Source: a virus
Direction: 5' to 3' (one strand)
Virus record (IMG/VR): IMGVR_UViG_3300042465_002980
Span: 1 to 38,258 of that record
Length of the DNA stretch: 38,258 nt
The notes beneath the pieces were generated by a model. The model did not search any database. It was given only the letters and a program-made list of their open reading frames with translations, and was not told where the DNA came from. Position numbers and translations under genes: made by a program. This document shows positions 1 to 24,791 of this stretch, in pieces. Each line of letters begins with the position of its first letter. Position 1 is the first letter of the stretch.

Positions 1-2
1 AC

Positions 3-368
3 GGCGACGTCACCGCGTACCGCTCAGAATTGCGCAGTATCACAAAATCACGGCATCATGCCGAAACCCTGATAAATGCCGTAGCATGGCGCGATAGCCT
101 CACGGCGGACGACATTATCAAGGCGTCGCAATCCGCCTATTCCGGGTGCCTCACGATTGTGCGCACCGACACCGGCGGATTCAAGATTGATTACTGCGCG
201 GGCCAATACTTCCCCACAGAATACCGTAACGCGGTCTGCGCCGTGCTGTCCGCGGCACTGTGGGATTACTGGCGCACCGATACCGTTAGCGGGGACGGCG
301 CCTGGGACAGGATACGTAATACCGCGCGTAAAGAGTTAGGTCGGAGCATTGCGCAAGTCTGGTTTTGA
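3..368 (+). CDS. hypothetical phage protein, 5' end cut by window
   Basis: I do not recognise this protein. The reading frame is open to the left edge of the window. The only in-window start is a TTG at 30 with no Shine-Dalgarno, and the codons before it read as ordinary protein, so the true start probably lies outside. From the TTG it would be 112 aa. It is soluble, with two Cys and a run of Trp/Tyr/Asp residues near the C-terminus, and has no signal peptide or membrane segment. It ends 79 bp before the next gene. Confidence 0.6.
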   Translation, partial: GDVTAYRSELRSITKSRHHAETLINAVAWRDSLTADDIIKASQSAYSGCLTIVRTDTGGFKIDYCAGQYFPTEYRNAVCAVLSAALWDYWRTDTVSGDGAWDRIRNTARKELGRSIAQVWF

Positions 369-381
369 TAAACCCCCAACG

Positions 382-426
382 GCCAGCGCCTTAGTAATAG
401 GGCGCTAGGCGGTGCGGGTTTCGCAC
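382..426 (+). other. two hairpins in an intergenic leader
   Basis: The 79-bp gap between the first two genes can form two hairpins. The first pairs GCC-AGCGCC (382-390) with GGCGCT-a-GGC (401-410). The second pairs GTGCG (412-416) with CGCAC (422-426). Neither is followed by a T-run, so an intrinsic terminator is unlikely. They sit just upstream of the AGGAG ribosome site of the next gene and could be a leader structure or a processing site. Confidence 0.35.
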
Positions 427-447
427 TATCTGATAGGAGTGGCAACC

Positions 448-660
448 ATGGACAAATACGGCGCAATAATGACCGGGCACGCCTGCGGTATCTTGGAGCA
501 GGTTTTTACCGCGGAATGGATCAACCTGGAAAACAAGGATCAGCAAAAAATTGCCCTTGATTTTCTGGATGCTGCAAATAATGAAGACTGCAGCGCCCGC
601 GAATACCAACGGCGGATTGGCGCCAGAAACCTTGCGAAGTATGCACGGTGCCTGAAATGA
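448..660 (+). CDS. small hypothetical protein (70 aa)
   Basis: I chose the ATG at 448 because AGGAG (435-439) lies 8 nt upstream. A GTG at 412 in the same frame lies inside a hairpin and has no ribosome site. The protein is 70 aa, soluble and slightly acidic in the middle, with a basic C-terminal third rich in Arg and Lys. I recognise no domain. Its stop overlaps the next start as ATGA (657-660), the translational-coupling junction typical of this early operon. Confidence 0.7.
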   Translation: MDKYGAIMTGHACGILEQVFTAEWINLENKDQQKIALDFLDAANNEDCSAREYQRRIGARNLAKYARCLK

Positions 661-869
661 CGCCTCTTAACAAAACAGTCAATCGCCGGACAATCGGCAC
701 ACACCGCGGCCGCCGTTTCGTGGTCATTCTGGAGCCTGGCGACGTTATCGGGTTTCGGCCTGAACGCACGCGCACCGTATTTTATACGACGTTAGCAGCA
801 TGTTTTGACATGGCAGTCCGGCAACATGTCGCCGCTAAACGTGCAGCGAAAAAGAAAGGTAAACAATGA
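657..869 (+). CDS. small basic hypothetical protein (70 aa)
   Basis: This starts at the ATG of an ATGA overlap with the previous gene. A GTG nine bases upstream is less likely. It is a very basic 70-aa protein: an Arg-rich N-terminal third, a beta-like middle (residues 20-45), and an Ala/Lys-rich tail ending in a Lys cluster. This would suit nucleic-acid binding, but no known fold is recognisable. It ends in another ATGA overlap at 866-869. Confidence 0.65.
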   Translation: MTPLNKTVNRRTIGTHRGRRFVVILEPGDVIGFRPERTRTVFYTTLAACFDMAVRQHVAAKRAAKKKGKQ

Positions 870-976
870 AACCGGAAACCCTCTACGAATGGCTAGGCGA
901 ATGCCTGGCGGCCGGGTGCGTGATTGCCTTGCCGTTGGTCTTGCTGTTTATTGGCGCGGCCTTGGGGCTGTCCTAA
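866..976 (+). CDS. 36-aa single-pass membrane protein
   Basis: This very short gene starts at the ATG of an ATGA overlap and ends in a TAATG overlap, so both ends fit the operon pattern. The protein has a short acidic N-terminus with a Trp, then one hydrophobic segment (about residues 13-34) rich in Ala, Leu, Gly and Val. It is probably an inner-membrane peptide, of a kind common in early phage operons for host takeover or exclusion. No specific function can be assigned. Confidence 0.6.
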   Translation: MKPETLYEWLGECLAAGCVIALPLVLLFIGAALGLS

Positions 977-1137
977 TGCTTTGGCGTAACCTGTCGGCGC
1001 TACGGCGCCGGCGATTACTTAACCTGCAGGCTCATGCCGAGGTGGCGGCCGCGCATGGCGATACGGCGTACAGCCGGAAAGCCCTGCGCATTTATTGGCG
1101 TTTTAACCCGGCCGTAAAGCCCTGGAATCTATGGTAA
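976..1137 (+). CDS. 53-aa basic hypothetical protein
   Basis: This begins at the ATG of a TAATG overlap with the membrane peptide gene (976). An in-frame start at 805 would run through two other genes and is not needed. The product is Arg-rich (an RRRR cluster near residue 12) with aromatic residues at the C-terminus. No domain is recognised. Its stop overlaps the following ATG at 1131. Confidence 0.55.
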   Translation: MLWRNLSALRRRRLLNLQAHAEVAAAHGDTAYSRKALRIYWRFNPAVKPWNLW

Positions 1138-1322
1138 ATCTGCCCGAATCCTGGCCATTTCCTGATGCGGTAATCGCGCCTGATCCATCGGATCCGCCGG
1201 TAATCGCGGACCGAAGTATTGACACGGCCAAAAAGTCCAGTATTATGGGCCTGCGCGGTAATCGCGGCAGGTCTGTGAAACCCCCGGTAATCGCCGGGGA
1301 TATTGATGATGCACCTTTTTAA
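1131..1322 (+). CDS. doubtful 63-aa ORF lying over a promoter/operator region
   Basis: The ATG at 1131 overlaps the previous stop, as other real genes here do. However, the encoded peptide is Pro/Asp-rich and low in complexity, and the DNA holds four exact copies of GGTAATCGC plus a near-consensus promoter. The repeats account for its recurring Val-Ile-Ala and Gly-Asn-Arg residues. It may be a real small protein, or this may be a regulatory region that happens to be open. The next gene has its own good ribosome site and does not need coupling from here. Confidence 0.35.
   Translation: MVNLPESWPFPDAVIAPDPSDPPVIADRSIDTAKKSSIMGLRGNRGRSVKPPVIAGDIDDAPF
1219..1246 (+). promoter_or_regulatory. sigma70-type promoter P1 flanked by dyad repeats
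   Basis: TTGACA (1219-1224) is separated by 16 bp from TATTAT (1241-1246), close to the bacterial consensus. One GGTAATCGC copy ends 12 bp upstream of the -35 box. Two others (1257 and 1286) lie just downstream of the -10 box, where transcription would start and early elongation would occur. P1 would serve the gene at 1337. Repression by a protein bound to the repeats is inference. Confidence 0.65.
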
Positions 1323-1336
1323 TTGGAGAAAAGATC

Positions 1337-1699
1337 ATGCGTAAATACACAGTAATCGCACCTGACGAGATGACCTTGGCCGATGTGCGCGCCATGTTGC
1401 CTGGCTGCACGGTTTCTGAAGTGAAGGTAAAAACGAAGGCCGGAAAGCCGGAAGCGGATTTTGAGCCGGTAATGGTGCTCAAGAATGGCGAAGTGATCCG
1501 CGAGATCGACGGCGTGAGCGCGCAGAAGGCCATCGCCAAGATCATGGCCGAAGTACGCAAGGGGCAGAACTCCGATGGCCGGCACAAGCACGTCTACCCG
1601 GACTGGGGTAATCGCCCGGACGCCAGCGCCGCGGATTACATCAAACAGTTTTGCGATGCGCTGAAGCACAAACCCGCCGATTATGTGGTGGCCGAATGA
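1337..1699 (+). CDS. hypothetical early protein (120 aa)
   Basis: A GGAG ribosome site (1324-1327) precedes the ATG at 1337, and P1 lies about 90 bp upstream. The protein is soluble. Its first 60 residues look like a small alpha/beta domain with many Lys, Glu and Val. The second half is helical, with a His/Tyr/Trp-containing stretch near residues 82-92. I cannot assign a family. The stop overlaps the next start as ATGA (1696-1699). Two copies of the repeat motif, one with a mismatch, lie within the coding sequence. Confidence 0.7.
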   Translation: MRKYTVIAPDEMTLADVRAMLPGCTVSEVKVKTKAGKPEADFEPVMVLKNGEVIREIDGVSAQKAIAKIMAEVRKGQNSDGRHKHVYPDWGNRPDASAADYIKQFCDALKHKPADYVVAE

Positions 1700-1893
1700 G
1701 CTACCATATCAAACCCCAGGGCGACAGCTTTCTGGTCATCAAGACCGCGGATCCGAGTAACCCCAAGGACCGCATGGCCGAGCGGATTATCGCAGTATGC
1801 GGTAATCTACCAGACGCAACCGCCGTATTGAAGGGGTTGTACTGGGTGGCTGCTGCGGAAAATACGCAAGTCAACGCCCGCGGGCAACATTGA
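1696..1893 (+). CDS. small hypothetical protein (65 aa)
   Basis: This starts at the ATG of an ATGA overlap with the preceding gene. The in-frame extension to 1651 has no ribosome site. It is a 65-aa soluble protein with a beta-like first half and an Ala-rich helical second half; no motif is recognised. It ends at 1893 within the -35 box of promoter P2, so the operon is re-initiated here. Confidence 0.65.
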   Translation: MSYHIKPQGDSFLVIKTADPSNPKDRMAERIIAVCGNLPDATAVLKGLYWVAAAENTQVNARGQH

Positions 1894-1918
1894 CAGTCCT
1901 GCGGTAATCGCGTATCCT
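1890..1918 (+). promoter_or_regulatory. sigma70-type promoter P2 with a dyad repeat in its spacer
   Basis: TTGACA (1890-1895) and TATCCT (1913-1918) are separated by exactly 17 bp. The spacer contains the full GCGGTAATCGCG dyad (exact 9-mer at 1903-1911), so a protein bound there would block RNA polymerase directly. The next gene starts at 1940 with a TTGGAG ribosome site. The position of the repeat is the strongest evidence that the motif is an operator. Confidence 0.65.
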
Positions 1919-1939
1919 TTGATAATTGGAGACAACATT

Positions 1940-2134
1940 ATGGGCCTGAAAAAAGTCGTTCGGTTTATCTCGCAAGCTGAAAAACCAGTGAGCCAGGTGT
2001 TCGATACTGGCCGGCGTGGCAATCCAATGATGGGCTGCGACTGCGTGCAATGCTTTGGCTATTGTTCGGTCAATTTTGAAATAGCGGAGCGAGAGAAAGC
2101 GGAGAAACGGCAGGCGCCGGGAGATGACGAATGA
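1940..2134 (+). CDS. Cys-rich hypothetical protein (64 aa)
   Basis: I chose the ATG at 1940, with TTGGAG (1926-1931) upstream, over a TTG at 1919. The protein is 64 aa: a basic N-terminal half, then four Cys in the pattern C-x-C-x2-C-x3-C around residues 35-43, then a charged Glu/Lys-rich tail. The Cys cluster could bind zinc or iron-sulphur, but it matches no family I can name. It is the first gene after P2 and overlaps the following lipoprotein gene by 4 bp. Confidence 0.65.
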   Translation: MGLKKVVRFISQAEKPVSQVFDTGRRGNPMMGCDCVQCFGYCSVNFEIAEREKAEKRQAPGDDE

Positions 2135-2484
2135 AACGCGCGGTAATCGCGGCTGCTTTACTGGCGATGACCGGCTGCACAGTTGTCAACGAGCATAAGC
2201 TGCCGCCGGCTGACTGGCCTGCGCTGGAAATAACTGTTGAGCGCAATGGCTTTTGGGAAACTCAGGAAAAGTGCGGACGCAACGTGGCCGAAGTGCTGTT
2301 AATTGGGCCTGCGCTTGGCTGCATGTGGGTCAATTTTGACGAGATGCGCTGCCGGATATACCTGTGGCTTGATGTATTGGAGCATGAAATGCTGCATTGC
2401 CGGGGGTATGACCATTACGGATCGTCCGACCTGGCTGACTATTGGGAACAGTGGAAAAAGGATAATCAAAATGTGCAACGGTAA
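2131..2484 (+). CDS. early lipoprotein with metzincin-type zinc motif
   Basis: The 117-aa product begins with a basic N-terminus and hydrophobic segment ending in a lipobox-like MTGC, with Cys16 as the predicted lipidation site, so it should be exported and anchored in the envelope. Residues 85-95 read HEMLHCRGYDH, which fits HExxHxxGxxH, the zinc-binding and catalytic signature of metzincins (His85, Glu86, His89, His95). Extra Cys residues in the mature part may form disulphides. Substrate and role are unknown; envelope remodelling or superinfection exclusion are guesses. The start is in an ATGA overlap, and a repeat copy lies in its first codons. Confidence 0.7.
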   Translation: MKRAVIAAALLAMTGCTVVNEHKLPPADWPALEITVERNGFWETQEKCGRNVAEVLLIGPALGCMWVNFDEMRCRIYLWLDVLEHEMLHCRGYDHYGSSDLADYWEQWKKDNQNVQR

Positions 2485-2620
2485 TTGCGATCAGGGTCGG
2501 CGCTGCGACTGCGTAACCAGCGATTTTCTTGACGGACTGATTACGTTGGGCTTTGCGGTGGCAATGCTGGTGGCTGGCGGCATCATCGGGTTTCTTGTTG
2601 GCTTTTTGGTGGGGGAGTGA
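2471..2620 (+). CDS. Cys-rich single-pass membrane protein (49 aa)
   Basis: The ATG at 2471 lies inside the end of the lipoprotein gene (14-bp overlap). The N-terminus has four Cys (residues 2, 6, 12, 14) with Gly, Gln and Arg between them. One hydrophobic helix follows (about residues 21-47), rich in Gly, Val and Phe. Small phage proteins with a similar Cys-Asn-rich head and a single membrane helix seem common to me, but I know no function for them. Confidence 0.6.
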   Translation: MCNGNCDQGRRCDCVTSDFLDGLITLGFAVAMLVAGGIIGFLVGFLVGE

Positions 2621-2621
2621 A

Positions 2622-2858
2622 ATGACCTTCCTAACCGAACTCACCGCAGTCCTAGCAAACGCTAATAACGCAATGGCTGGAGTATTCCTCCGCAGTCACG
2701 CCAAAGAAATCGTCGCGCTGGTCGAGGCTGTGCAGCAGGAACACGGGGGAGAAATCAACAATCCCCGATGCCCGATCTGCAACGCCCTCGCCGCGCTGGA
2801 CAAGGAGCCAATAGACCCCAACAAATGGGCCTTTGACCGGGGGCTGGAGAGCTACTAA
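2622..2858 (+). CDS. hypothetical protein with one CxxC (78 aa)
   Basis: The ATG at 2622 follows the previous stop by 1 bp, with GGGGGAG just upstream as the ribosome site. An upstream in-frame start would overlap the membrane protein. The product is 78 aa and mainly helical in its first 45 residues, then has a single CPIC pair that could be half of a zinc site. It ends in an acidic, aromatic tail. It directly precedes the RuvC-like gene. Confidence 0.6.
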   Translation: MTFLTELTAVLANANNAMAGVFLRSHAKEIVALVEAVQQEHGGEINNPRCPICNALAALDKEPIDPNKWAFDRGLESY

Positions 2859-2859
2859 T

Positions 2860-3339
2860 ATGAATAATTGGATCCTCGGGGTAGACCCTGGCCTGTCTGG
2901 CTGCATGGCGATGCTCCACAAAGGCGCCGTGGATGTGTTTGACATTCCGACCACCACGCGCACGGTCAACAAGAAAGAGAAACGCCAGATTGACCCGTAT
3001 CAACTGGCTGCCTGGCTGGAGATACAGCGCCCACTAATCAAGTTCGCCGTGGTTGAACAGGTCGGTACCATGCCCGGCCAGGGCGTCACGTCCGCATTTA
3101 ATTTTGGCTTTACAACAGGTTGTATTCACGGTATTATTGCAGCCTGTGGTATTAAAATACGTACGGTACCGCCGCAGGTGTGGAAACGAAAATATGGGCT
3201 GCTCGGCCAGAACAAGGACGCCAGCCGCGGGGAAGCAAGTCGCAGGTTCCCCGAGTTCACCCACCTGTGGCCATTAAAGAAGCACGATGGCCGGGCAGAA
3301 GCGGCGCTGCTGGCACTTTATGGGAGTGAGACGACATGA
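2860..3339 (+). CDS. RuvC-like Holliday junction resolvase
   Basis: The 159-aa protein has the RuvC/RNase H-fold layout. Asp9 lies in the first strand (GVDPGLSG), Glu66 in VVEQVG at the usual spacing, and His142-Asp143 near the C-terminus (KKHDGRAEA) with Glu147. These would bind two metal ions to cleave branched DNA during replication, recombination or packaging. Length and residue spacing match bacterial RuvC. The ATG at 2860 is close behind the previous stop; a longer start at 2833 is unlikely. A second resolvase-type gene occurs at 7443. Confidence 0.88.
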   Translation: MNNWILGVDPGLSGCMAMLHKGAVDVFDIPTTTRTVNKKEKRQIDPYQLAAWLEIQRPLIKFAVVEQVGTMPGQGVTSAFNFGFTTGCIHGIIAACGIKIRTVPPQVWKRKYGLLGQNKDASRGEASRRFPEFTHLWPLKKHDGRAEAALLALYGSETT

Positions 3340-3494
3340 TCCCCTCGATTGCAGATCAGTTGCTGTACATGGGCCTGGGCGCCGGCATTATGCAACTAAT
3401 CCATGAATACTACGCTTTCAAACCTGACCATGGCCGGGTGTTCGGTGCCATCCAGATGGTGTTGTTCTGGACTTACTTGTTGGTGAAGACGTGA
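3336..3494 (+). CDS. small membrane protein (52 aa)
   Basis: This starts in an ATGA overlap with the resolvase gene and ends in a GTGA overlap with the next. The 52-aa product has two hydrophobic stretches, about residues 5-25 and 34-51, separated by a charged turn, so it is probably a two-pass membrane hairpin. It forms a pair with the membrane protein gene that follows. I recognise no family. Confidence 0.6.
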   Translation: MIPSIADQLLYMGLGAGIMQLIHEYYAFKPDHGRVFGAIQMVLFWTYLLVKT

Positions 3495-3733
3495 GTTACC
3501 TCGCCGCCTTCGCTGCATCCTTCGTCTATATCTGTTTGAAGGCCATGCAGCAGATCAACGTGGTGCGGGACGCGCAGCGGTGGATCCTGCCCACATCCTT
3601 GGGTATGACGGCGTGCGAGTTCTACATCGTAGGCTACATCGCCGCGGTCGGGCCGACGCTGCCGGGCATCATGGCTATTGGTATTGGCTCCGGCCTGGGC
3701 TGCCTGCTGGCTATGCGGATACATCGCAAGTGA
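3491..3733 (+). CDS. multi-pass small membrane protein (80 aa)
   Basis: It starts with GTG at 3491 in a GTGA overlap. The 80-aa protein has hydrophobic segments around residues 3-19, 38-53 and 57-75, separated by a basic loop with Arg and Trp, and ends with a short basic tail. The size and shape are holin-like, but it sits in the early region away from the lysis genes, so I leave it as a membrane protein of unknown role. The next gene starts in another GTGA overlap. Confidence 0.65.
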   Translation: MSYLAAFAASFVYICLKAMQQINVVRDAQRWILPTSLGMTACEFYIVGYIAAVGPTLPGIMAIGIGSGLGCLLAMRIHRK

Positions 3734-3933
3734 TCTACATCCTGTACGTCGCCTACATTGTCACGGCATCCGGCGTGCCGCACCCGCAGCAGGTCGGCCC
3801 CTTCAAAGGCATTATCGCCTGTGAACACGCTGCCGCTCAAGTCCAAGCAGTTGACAACCGCATCCGATCCACGGTATGCTTATCGTTGAACCATAAACCA
3901 ATGCACTGGAATGGAAAGGAACTCCCAAAATGA
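3730..3933 (+). CDS. hypothetical protein (67 aa)
   Basis: The GTG at 3730 overlaps the previous stop (GTGA), and the stop at 3933 overlaps the next ATG (ATGA). This tight fit is why I prefer it to a longer frame from 3580, which would cover a real gene. The first dozen residues are hydrophobic and aromatic; the rest is polar with Cys and His residues. Function is unknown. Confidence 0.5.
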   Translation: MIYILYVAYIVTASGVPHPQQVGPFKGIIACEHAAAQVQAVDNRIRSTVCLSLNHKPMHWNGKELPK

Positions 3934-4259
3934 CCCTCCCGACCGACGCTGCCGCCCGCAAAGCCATTCCGGTGTACAGCGGGTTCATCAAATATTTCCC
4001 CCGCGGCATGATCGCCGTGGCCCAGTTGTCCAAGATCGGTAACGAACAGCACAACCCTGGCCAGCCTCTTTACTGGGATCGGTCGAAGTCCGGTGACGAG
4101 ATGGACGCACTGGTGCGGCACATGCTGGACGACGCCATGGGCGTGCCAGTGGACACTGACGGGGTGCTGCACGCCACCAAGCTGGCCTGGCGCGCGATGG
4201 GCAATCTGGAGAAGCTGCTGGAGAATAAAGCGGCAAATACCCGGAACGGGGTGAAATGA
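3930..4259 (+). CDS. dATP/dGTP diphosphohydrolase-like protein (DUF5664)
   Basis: The 109-aa product resembles the small phage domain named dATP/dGTP diphosphohydrolase N-terminal (DUF5664). It has an ARKAIPVYSG start (residues 9-18), a YFP segment, the signature KIGNEQHNPGQP (35-46), a Trp-containing segment, and a helical part with RHM and Ala-Trp-Arg-Ala. Members are proposed to hydrolyse purine dNTPs, and in some phages they go with altered dNTP pools or base substitution. No PurZ-like gene is in this window. It starts in an ATGA overlap and ends overlapping the phosphoesterase gene. Confidence 0.75.
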   Translation: MTLPTDAAARKAIPVYSGFIKYFPRGMIAVAQLSKIGNEQHNPGQPLYWDRSKSGDEMDALVRHMLDDAMGVPVDTDGVLHATKLAWRAMGNLEKLLENKAANTRNGVK

Positions 4260-5143
4260 TGCCCTATAAAGACGTTACCAAGAAACGGGAGAATGACCGC
4301 AAGTATTGGCTGAAGGTCAAGGGCGCCGGCCCTTTGCCGGTATCAACCGCCATGAACCGAGCCATAGATGTGGTACAACACATTAAGATCAAGGTGCCGA
4401 AGCACGGACTAAAGATTGCCTACATCCCGGACGCGCAGGTCATGCCGGGCGTTGACATGCGGCACCTGTTCTGGTGCGGGCAGTATCTGGCAGAGAAGCG
4501 CCCGGACGTGATTGTCTGTGGTGGCGACTTTGGCGACTTTCCCAGCCTGTCACGCTTTGGCCGCGGGGAACGCAAGTTTGAAGGGCTGCGCTACCGCCGG
4601 GACATTGACGCTTTCCATCAAGGCATGGAACTGTTGATGACACCGATTGCGCTGGCCAAGAACTACAAGCCGGCGCTGCACTTCACCCTTGGCAACCATG
4701 AAGACCACATCAATCGCATCACGCAGGAGCACTCCTTTCTGGAAGGGCTGATCTCGCAAGACGACCTGCACTTGGCTGACTATGGCTGGAACGTTCACCC
4801 GTTCATGCAGCCTATTGCCATTGCCGGCGTGGCCTTCTGCCACTACTTCCCGAGCGGCGGCCTGGGTCGCCCAATCACGACCGCGCGCGACATCCTGAAC
4901 AAGCTGCACATGAGCGCCATTGCCGGCCACCAGCAGGGCCGGGACATTGCGTACGGCAAGCGGGCTGACGGGCGCCAGATGACGGCGATCATCAGCGGTA
5001 GCTTCTACCAGCACGACATGAGCTACCTGTCGCCATTTACCAACGCCCACTGGCGCGGTATGTGGCTTCTCCATCAAGTTAAAAATGGCGAATTTGACGA
5101 GATGGCACTTTCAATCGACTACCTGAAACGGAGATATGCGTGA
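4256..5143 (+). CDS. calcineurin-like metallophosphoesterase
   Basis: The 295-aa protein carries the metallophosphoesterase motifs: Asp59-x-Gln61 (normally DxH), GGDFGD with Asp91, GNHED with Asn147-His148-Glu149, His196, and GHQQG with His225 (normally GHxH). It should bind two metals and cleave phosphoesters. The Gln in place of the first metal-ligand His and the loss of the last His suggest altered metal use. The first 20 residues (PYKD, KKRENDRKYW) resemble the basic leader of phage HNH endonucleases. Starts at 4256 and 4259 are both possible. It follows the dNTP hydrolase gene, so nucleotide or end processing is plausible. Confidence 0.82.
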   Translation: MMPYKDVTKKRENDRKYWLKVKGAGPLPVSTAMNRAIDVVQHIKIKVPKHGLKIAYIPDAQVMPGVDMRHLFWCGQYLAEKRPDVIVCGGDFGDFPSLSRFGRGERKFEGLRYRRDIDAFHQGMELLMTPIALAKNYKPALHFTLGNHEDHINRITQEHSFLEGLISQDDLHLADYGWNVHPFMQPIAIAGVAFCHYFPSGGLGRPITTARDILNKLHMSAIAGHQQGRDIAYGKRADGRQMTAIISGSFYQHDMSYLSPFTNAHWRGMWLLHQVKNGEFDEMALSIDYLKRRYA

Positions 5144-16307: not shown

Positions 16308-16603
16308 AACGTCACCAAGGGCTTGATGGCCTGTGCCGGGATCACCGACACAGTGCCGTCATCGAAGTACAACCCAATGGCCCCGGCTTCTGTAAAGCCA
16401 CCGAAGCAACCCTCGTTGGTCTTGCCGTTCTGCGTCCACGTTGCTCGCAGCGGCAGGTTCTTCACCGCTGGCAACCGGCACTTCTCGTCAAACAGCGTGA
16501 CGGTAACGCCCGGCGCATTGGCCGCGGCGATGGGTGCGGCGTACAGCCCGACCCAAATAAACAGCAACCCGACAGCGATAACACCTTGCACAATGGTTTT
16601 CAT
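16304..16603 (-). CDS. secreted hypothetical protein in the lysis cassette
   Basis: The 99-aa product has a signal peptide: Lys2, a hydrophobic core to about residue 22, and an Ala-x-Ala-type end near residue 28. The mature part has two Cys (42 and 66), likely a disulphide, and strand-rich sequence with ATWTQNGKTNEGC and FDDGTVSVIPAQA. I have seen similar small exported phage proteins but know no function. Its place in the lysis cassette suggests a periplasmic role. It is not a recognisable Rz or Rz1 spanin. Confidence 0.65.
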   Translation of the reverse strand: MKTIVQGVIAVGLLFIWVGLYAAPIAAANAPGVTVTLFDEKCRLPAVKNLPLRATWTQNGKTNEGCFGGFTEAGAIGLYFDDGTVSVIPAQAIKPLVTL

Positions 16604-16941
16604 ACGCTCCCCTTTGACCAGCCCATTTCAATCTCAATGGCACGGGCGGCTTCCTTGAAGTCGGTGTCGTGCGCGTACTTGTTTGGCACCTGGTCGTGAC
16701 CGAGAGCCGCGTGCAGCATCTCATGTGCCAGGATGCGGAGCAGCATGTCCAGTGATTTTGTGTCGGTGGTGTCTACCCAGATACAGTGGTTGTCGCCAGC
16801 CTTGCCATGGTAGCCATGGGCTTTGAGTGGCTTGGCCACGAACACCATCTTGTTGACCGAGGGCAGGCGGCGGTCACTGCTGAACGCAATCTTTTTGAGG
16901 AAGCAGTAACCCGCGCGCAGGTCACTCTCGTCAAAGTTCAT
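16600..16941 (-). CDS. SprT-like putative zinc metallopeptidase
   Basis: I chose the ATG at 16941 because it forms an ATGA overlap with the preceding holin-like gene; a longer start at 17055 would run through that gene. The 113-aa protein has HEMLH (His73, Glu74, His77) and a later His91 in YAHDTDF, the order of SprT-like proteases. A beta-rich segment with CIWVDTTD precedes it. It is short for SprT and has no visible zinc ribbon. Its presence among lysis genes is unusual. Substrate unknown. Confidence 0.72.
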   Translation of the reverse strand: MNFDESDLRAGYCFLKKIAFSSDRRLPSVNKMVFVAKPLKAHGYHGKAGDNHCIWVDTTDTKSLDMLLRILAHEMLHAALGHDQVPNKYAHDTDFKEAARAIEIEMGWSKGSV

Positions 16942-17123
16942 TTTTTGCGCAGCCAGTCCTGCACAGTCTGCGTTTCGTATATCCGAATAACCGTCCAGAC
17001 AATAGCGGCAATGGTGGCGATGATGGTCAGCGCGGTAGAGAACACCCCAAGCCACGCAGCGAATACCGTACCATAAGCCGCTGCGTCGGCCAGGTGTTTG
17101 ACTTGATCCGTTTGCTGCACCAT
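16938..17123 (-). CDS. 61-aa holin-like membrane protein
   Basis: The ATG at 17123 has AAGGGG upstream; an ATG at 17141 has no ribosome site, so I prefer the shorter form. The product has a polar N-terminus, one long hydrophobic stretch (about residues 18-49) that could hold one or two helices, and a basic C-terminal tail (WLRKK). Size, charge pattern and position at the start of the lysis cassette fit a small holin. With the 3TM holin downstream, the cassette may have a holin pair. Confidence 0.6.
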   Translation of the reverse strand: MVQQTDQVKHLADAAAYGTVFAAWLGVFSTALTIIATIAAIVWTVIRIYETQTVQDWLRKK

Positions 17124-24500: not shown

Positions 24501-24791
24501 GCCGCCTGGCGCGGCTGGAACTGCGGCGGCGATAGACAGCGGCAGGTCAGCTACAACACCCGCGGCGCCAGCGGCTAGGCGTTGATGCCAAGGGGCGTCT
24601 TCACCTAGTTGCTGACTTGGCATCTGGCCGCGCAAGGCCAGACCGGTGGCGCTGTTCTGCAGCCCGGCGATTACCGCGTCACCAATGTCTTTGGCACGTT
24701 TCGGCTCCGGCACGTTGATCGCCGGCGGGCCGAATTGCGCCCACGGACCTGCGACCGGCGCAGATTGGAACTGCTCCCAGGGACCAGCCAT
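21576..24791 (-). CDS. large internal virion / DNA ejection protein (gp16-like position)
   Basis: At 1071 aa this is the largest gene. The N-terminus has two GPWEQF/GPWAQF repeats (residues 3-8 and 15-20), seen in many large phage ejection proteins. Residues about 70-180 are Gly/Ala-rich and hydrophobic and could insert into the host membrane. The rest is long and helical. No transglycosylase motif was found by eye. By order (gp13-, gp14-, gp15-like genes upstream) it corresponds to T7 gp16. It overlaps both neighbours. The only exact GGTAATCGC copy outside the early region lies in this gene, at 24667-24675. Confidence 0.8.
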   Translation of the reverse strand: MAGPWEQFQSAPVAGPWAQFGPPAINVPEPKRAKDIGDAVIAGLQNSATGLALRGQMPSQQLGEDAPWHQRLAAGAAGVVADLPLSIAAAVPAAPGGPIAMGAAGFAAPMALRDALIEAYSNNHAASWGGVWDIAKAAMAGGTKGAVIGAATMGAGRVVGAALPATAGAVTKGAAVFGTELSTLTTTSAALEGRMPTAMDFMDNALLLGGMKGAVKVAGGLRSIYAQTGRTPDMVAGDAAKNPEIKAALEKGETPKAYEPVALQERIKAAIDADPRPDMLREALNADPTTVPKLGSGALVDPVKYEYITDNATAKGVLRGVTELYQNEIQAQTRGVVPNKQTATEALQAIAGGKVSDRVIGEAGNAAEIYARAHLLKGATNHAMQELAKIKDLTPAELTPQAKLTALAAIERVGMLKAELEGVGAEAGRALQILRSIKYDSALLGEANVLLAAAERKGSLQDVARMMSQMKDPAQMAEFASQYSKATTTEKVIEAWKAGILSGPLTHLANIMGNTTKWMIDLPENTLAATITAGKRAAKGDPLTMAQYKARALSSVIGLQLGTADALKVAGEALRSDTLSLDKGDIYRPAIEGVKGEIIRTPFRLLQAQDALFRIPAERAKAYELAVDRVVKEGLHPDTMEAKAKITEYLNNPATGLSATAGQKVLDTIAQVGAEAVFSQRVGPRLEMVQQAMAGHWSQFVIPFVRTPANLVSWAVQHTPGLNLLSGRWRADFAAGGEAQARAIARVTIGTGIAMTAFAMAEDGILTGGGLYDKEQGGTKRAAGWQPYSIQIDGKYYSYQRIEPVAKVMGIAGDLIDMIKASDDNVDAKKMTAMLVLMFGNATISTTYLSGLASAVNAMVDPVRYGDQFMEGYATSLVPKIIGQTTTLADPYKREVDGVMDAIQSQLPYFREKLMPKRDAWGEPSANNKWFAVMPVATSEVSKNKVKTEAVRLELAIAPVPKDITEKGPLKAKDKRIELTAEQRDVFAQVSGKNAMEILAPIVNAPDWERTPDFAKEAIYKRVIEGTRRQGQYAALPADAAERDKVRQKIVDTIIKQTEAVAPEKRIKAEK

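Follow-up and report, generated by a model that had tools for sequence, protein, structure and literature searches.

The early region of an uncultivated tailed phage carries a cluster of a short word, CGGTAATCG[C/G], which is probably an asymmetric, oriented operator of stoperator-like type, placed at early sigma70-type promoters for a putative sequence-specific binder. The word is most likely the binding site of a switch protein because the same layout, promoter plus word, recurs in distant relatives; this recurrence across lineages was noticed post hoc, after looking. The DNA analysed, called the window below, is a virus record of 38,258 bases. Its + strand codes for small early and replication genes up to about 15.5 kb, and the - strand for structural genes. 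The capsid resembles those of HTVC010P-like phages (about 40% identity; best match 44%). Bearers of the motif form a little-known clade of uncultivated tailed phages, four of which (G002, G005, G007 and G009) look complete because they have terminal repeats at about 43-44 kb.

A one-directional cluster of repeats in early genes

Exact copies of GCGGTAATCGCG lie at 1167, 1255, 1901 and 2140 of the window. GGTAATCGC occurs exactly on the + strand at 1169, 1199, 1257, 1286, 1607, 1903 and 2142, within 982 bp. All seven of these copies, spanning 1169 to 2150, are on the early-gene strand, and the remaining 37 kb hold one other, at 24667 (-). With one mismatch allowed, the window gives 20 matches; 100 shuffled versions give 8.2 +/- 3.0, and not one reaches that number. 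Among clustered k-mers, CGGTAATCG ranks first in the window and likewise in G002, G005, G006, G007 and G009. A matrix scan places the strong early sites of the window on the + strand only, and in six genomes (the window and five relatives) all strong early sites are on the early strand. The scan gives one strong outlier in the window, inside a late gene and in the sense of late transcription; this lone copy (24666-24677, -) is close to the beginning of the gene, a large one, and is common to G005 and G006. Features of the early region are collected in Table 1.

Table 1. Promoters, repeat copies and genes of the early region of the window
Feature	Position	Strand	Basis	Remarks
Small ORF, LPExWPFP family	1131..1322	+		Holds sites 1-4 and P1; relative in L059
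Site 1, CGGTAATCGC	1168..1177	+	Word count, matrix scan	
Site 2, CGGTAATCGC	1198..1207	+	Word count, matrix scan	30 bp from site 1
Promoter P1, TTGACA-16-TATTAT	1219..1246	+	Promoter scan	Hexamers conserved
Site 3, CGGTAATCGC	1256..1265	+	Word count, matrix scan	Just downstream of P1
Site 4, CGGTAATCGC	1285..1294	+	Word count, matrix scan	
One-mismatch site, CAGTAATCGC	1350..1359	+	Word count, matrix scan	Start of gene 1337-1699
Site, GGGTAATCGC	1606..1615	+		Within gene 1337-1699; missing from L054/L056 homologue
Degenerate site, CGGTAATCTA	1800..1809	+		Full consensus in L054/L056
P2 -35 hexamer, TTGACA	1890..1895	+	Direct reading, promoter scan	Identical in six close relatives
Repeat GCGGTAATCGCG in P2 17-bp spacer	1901..1912	+	Direct reading	
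P2 -10 hexamer, TATCCT	1913..1918	+	Direct reading, promoter scan, relatives	
Cys-rich protein gene, VFDxGRRGNPxxGCDCxxCFGYC	1940..2134	+		First gene after P2; candidate regulator
Lipoprotein gene, HExxHxxGxxH motif HEMLHCRGYDH	2131..2484	+		
Site, CGGTAATCGC	2141..2150	+	 	10-11 bp into lipoprotein gene
Small Cys-rich membrane protein gene	2471..2620	+		
Near-site, CGGTAATTGC	2479..2488	+	Word count, matrix scan	Start of gene 2471-2620

Sites occur inside genes 1131-1322, 1337-1699 and 2131-2484; relative to start codons, they range from -37 to about +270. P1 has a site on each side, about 11 bp before it and 10 bp after it. An ORF similar to that of 1131-1322 is also read in L060. In L051-L053, gene 1337-1699 is swapped for an unrelated gene with conserved flanks, the replacement bearing AGTAATCGCG near its start. 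A second short word, ATGGGCCTGC, lies near the motif at 1244 of the window and at 3532, 4019 and 4450 of L059, and TGGGCCTGC is present in four copies within 1.3 kb of G009. A literature text search gave, among the ten matches listed out of 88, no paper describing this word as a motif of phages.

Other elements were observed nearby. Two tandem hairpins at 378-432 of the window (-29.1 kcal/mol, z -4.6) are near-identical in L054 (~4795-4852) though neighbouring genes differ; an Rfam search of positions 1-4000 returned nothing credible. In L051 (the record of G002; 4460-4640) and G006 (~1745-1880), the small terminase gene is separated from the first early gene by an array of GTTACGGTT/CGTTACGG repeats that may serve as an origin or in packaging; the window contig stops before it. 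A TTGACA-17-TAGCCT sequence at L051:4735-4775, flanked by an inverted repeat AAACCCC...GGGGTTT and near-identical in L054, is likely the first early promoter.

The word inside promoter spacers

Direct reading confirmed that TTGACA and TATCCT stand 17 bp apart with the repeat between them, as the initial annotation had stated (1890-TTGACA-GTCCTGCGGTAATCGCG-TATCCT-1918). P2 ranks 10 of 12 in the promoter scan of the window, and all promoters described here, P1 and P2 included, are consensus matches; from its position, P2 transcription would be expected to start near 1924-1926. GTAATCGCG is unchanged at P2 in all six close relatives, and in L054/L056 the repeat there has GGTAAT altered to AGTAAT. 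At the local site density, the chance of a site landing in one given spacer is roughly 6% by rough estimate, so the weight rests on relatives rather than on the single coincidence at P2.

In the distant relative L057 (G007; 71% in a RuvC-like protein), the same Cys-rich gene is preceded by TTGACA-GGCTCGGTAATCGGGCG-TAATCT, that is, TTGACA-GGCT-CGGTAATCG-GGCG-TAATCT. The motif has moved 2 bp relative to P2 while the spacer is still 17, and a further copy is located 22 bp upstream. In L167 the word takes a variant form, CGGTATTC, with seven forward and no reverse copies in a 17.7-kb record (Poisson about 6e-9). One of its copies is found in TTGACA-CACGCC-CGGTATTCC-GG-TACTCT, with a spacer of 17, the 6+9+2 register of P2 and a -10 matching at only 3/6 positions; what this promoter drives is a small ORF located some 230 bp ahead of the Cys-rich gene. 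In the lambda-like control region of the unrelated L179, CGGTATTCC is found three times between divergently oriented promoter-like sequences; one copy occupies a spacer, in the same register, and immediately precedes a small ORF that gave weak HTH matches. Because in-spacer placement recurs in L057 and L167, with a closely similar word in the same register in L179, the operator reading is good.

Other relatives show other arrangements. L059 (G009) has GGTAATGG twice in addition to four exact copies; its exact sites are away from any recognised promoter and only a near-site lies at one, just past a TTGACA-17-TACAGT promoter that comes after an intrinsic terminator. L142 has three sites, two of them with the 30-bp separation seen in the window. 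These first two are placed after an intrinsic terminator (4728-4750, -14.6 kcal/mol) and ahead of TTGACA-18-TAGAGT; the third comes about 12 bp after the -10 of that promoter. L058 has four CGGTA[AT]TC words nearby on one strand, and L060 and L141 keep the Cys-rich gene and promoter-like upstream sequence with the motif absent. Outside the clade, two-copy scans of IMG/VR yielded mostly coding tandem repeats, and a fixed-register promoter scan mostly single copies, plus L179. A scan of bacterial genomes with the promoter pattern gave at least 118 matches; among the matches listed, three had at least three nearby copies, in unrelated genomes.

Constraint on the word and competing readings

Between the window and L054, 59 of 60 motif columns and 24 of 24 promoter hexamer positions are identical, compared with 676 of 894 (76%) in the rest; judged from this alignment, selection acts on the nucleotides of the motif. 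Mere chance or coding repetition of VIA and GNR peptides is thus a very remote explanation. Among other viral contigs that have two close copies, the majority are indeed coding tandem repeats. Yet within the cluster VIA is written GTAATCGCN in 5/5 cases (elsewhere in the window in 1/8) and GNR is written GGTAATCGC in 2/2, which speaks for selection on the nucleotides. The copies also occupy two reading frames as well as intergenic DNA, so a repeated peptide is not their cause, and they are far above shuffles and conserved in excess as nucleotides. Neither does coding force the orientation, since no frame of the reversed word contains a stop codon.

The initial annotation had seen a dyad at P2, which proved imperfect (CGGTAATCG versus its complement CGATTACCG). 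At site 1351 and at P2 of L054/L056, position 1 is changed from G to A and the partner base is unchanged. Since such mismatches are uncompensated and orientation is fixed, the element is asymmetric. A palindromic operator for a dimer was rejected on the same imperfect dyad and lack of compensatory changes. An RNA hairpin was rejected as well: flank complementarity showed no excess over a permuted null (P 0.15-0.27; MFE P 0.32), and no hairpin signal extends beyond the core.

A doubtful but possible alternative is that CGGUAAUCGC acts within early mRNA, as the target of a protein or small RNA controlling translation, stability or antitermination. In its favour, every site is on the strand that early transcripts carry as sense, several are 10-14 nt past start codons (1351, 2142, 2480), and some form strong hairpins (1257, 1286, L142:4947). 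Against this, flanks are no more complementary than permuted ones, start-codon distances vary widely, and the in-spacer copies and those between terminator and promoter in L142 are probably outside the transcript of the adjoining promoter. The L142 copies, probably untranscribed, point to DNA recognition, which is favoured by spacer placement, by the sites around P1 and by sites upstream of a promoter behind a terminator. An activator role, the bound protein aiding rather than blocking polymerase at P1 and P2, is improbable: the -10 of P2 is weak (TATCCT), that of L167 weaker, and a site lies upstream of the -35 in L057 and at P1, but copies within genes do not fit activation. The spacing of P2 is, moreover, already optimal at 17, so distortion of the spacer in the manner of MerR is unneeded. 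Iteron-like repeats for replication, packaging or recombination, overlapping promoters by chance, would share the common orientation and 29-30 bp steps, and the region does swap genes between relatives (1337-1699 replaced in L051). This reading is also improbable, as sites are spread over 1.3 kb and different genes with no regular phasing across genomes, and G002 and G006 have a separate GTTACGGTT array at the terminase/early junction.

In the preferred, operator reading, the sites would belong to a small regulatory network of the early region, and a sequence-specific DNA-binding protein, phage-encoded or host-supplied, would bind them at early sigma70-type promoters, sitting between -35 and -10 at P2 and just upstream and downstream of P1. 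It would keep RNA polymerase off the promoter, its simplest role being to turn early transcription down in time, and intragenic copies in the same orientation may act as roadblocks to elongation, as mycobacteriophage stoperators do. Several observations count against this reading: the placement of the exact L059 sites, the absence of the motif in L060 and L141, the poor -10 of L167 and the different ORF behind it, and the lack of a recognised repressor or integrase in the gene set of G002. Blocking by a repressor at P2, proposed at the outset, gains from the conservation of P2 and motif and from the recurring in-spacer placement, but no repressor was identified, which leaves room for activation or a host protein. 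The proposal that P2 governs a separately switched gene set is only partly supported: it is weakened because sites also flank P1 and occur within genes, and no credible terminator isolating P2 was found in the window.

Candidate binder and relation to known switches

The genes downstream of P2 do match their earlier description as Cys-rich protein, HExxHxxGxxH lipoprotein and Cys-rich membrane protein. All genes around P2 are on the + strand, with no HTH family among them. In the gene set of the complete relative G002 (DNA polymerase and one lysis-region gene being outside the scanned set), which includes small uncharacterised proteins, no integrase and no recognised repressor or HTH family was found. 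The Cys-rich protein of 1940-2134 is a candidate binder solely by its association with the sites; it is also present in relatives where they are absent. Pfam searches gave no match for it and no significant match for the lipoprotein (2131-2484); no Cys-rich homologues were found in cultured phage records or in GTDB genomes. Structure models of products 657-869 and 1940-2134 were uninformative (mean pLDDT 58 and 45). A second HExxH-type protein besides the lipoprotein, of the SprT-like metalloprotease family, is encoded downstream of the tail genes (16600-17055, -).

L5-type (Cluster A) stoperators (PMC9283540) are similarly many, short and asymmetric, with one orientation relative to transcription, and are located both at promoters (here the consensus matches P1 and P2) and downstream in transcribed DNA; reversal of the L5 site abolishes repression (PMC9283540). 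Unlike them, the word has a different sequence, spans 10 bp rather than 13 bp, and forms a cluster of about 1.3 kb plus one strong late-gene site instead of a genome-wide set; in the scanned gene set of the complete relative, no L5-type repressor was found, nor any sign of lysogeny genes. Lambda-type CI/Cro operators, exemplified by the L179 control region, share the position within the -35/-10 spacer of an early promoter, whereas the window site is asymmetric and fixed in orientation and has neither a divergent promoter pair nor a cI/cro-like gene beside it. Start-Associated Sequences of Cluster K mycobacteriophages, whose binder is unknown (PMC3203893), are likewise short oriented repeats in early genes with symmetric outer bases and an asymmetric core, but they stand 3-7 bp before start codons and have a Shine-Dalgarno core AGGAG, and the window sites do not.

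It is conceivable, if unlikely, that the complete system consists of a phage-encoded regulator, perhaps the Cys-rich protein acting on its own promoter, with one-directional operators and intragenic roadblocks, and with specificity shifted between lineages (CGGTAATCG to CGGTATTC), all in phages with no recognised repressor or integrase. The best-known examples of oriented operators that also lie within coding sequence come from temperate actinobacterial phages. The paired site variants offer a direct route to the binding protein. If the reading is true, the occurrence of this layout in a clade where no repressor was recognised would suggest a wider distribution of such switches.
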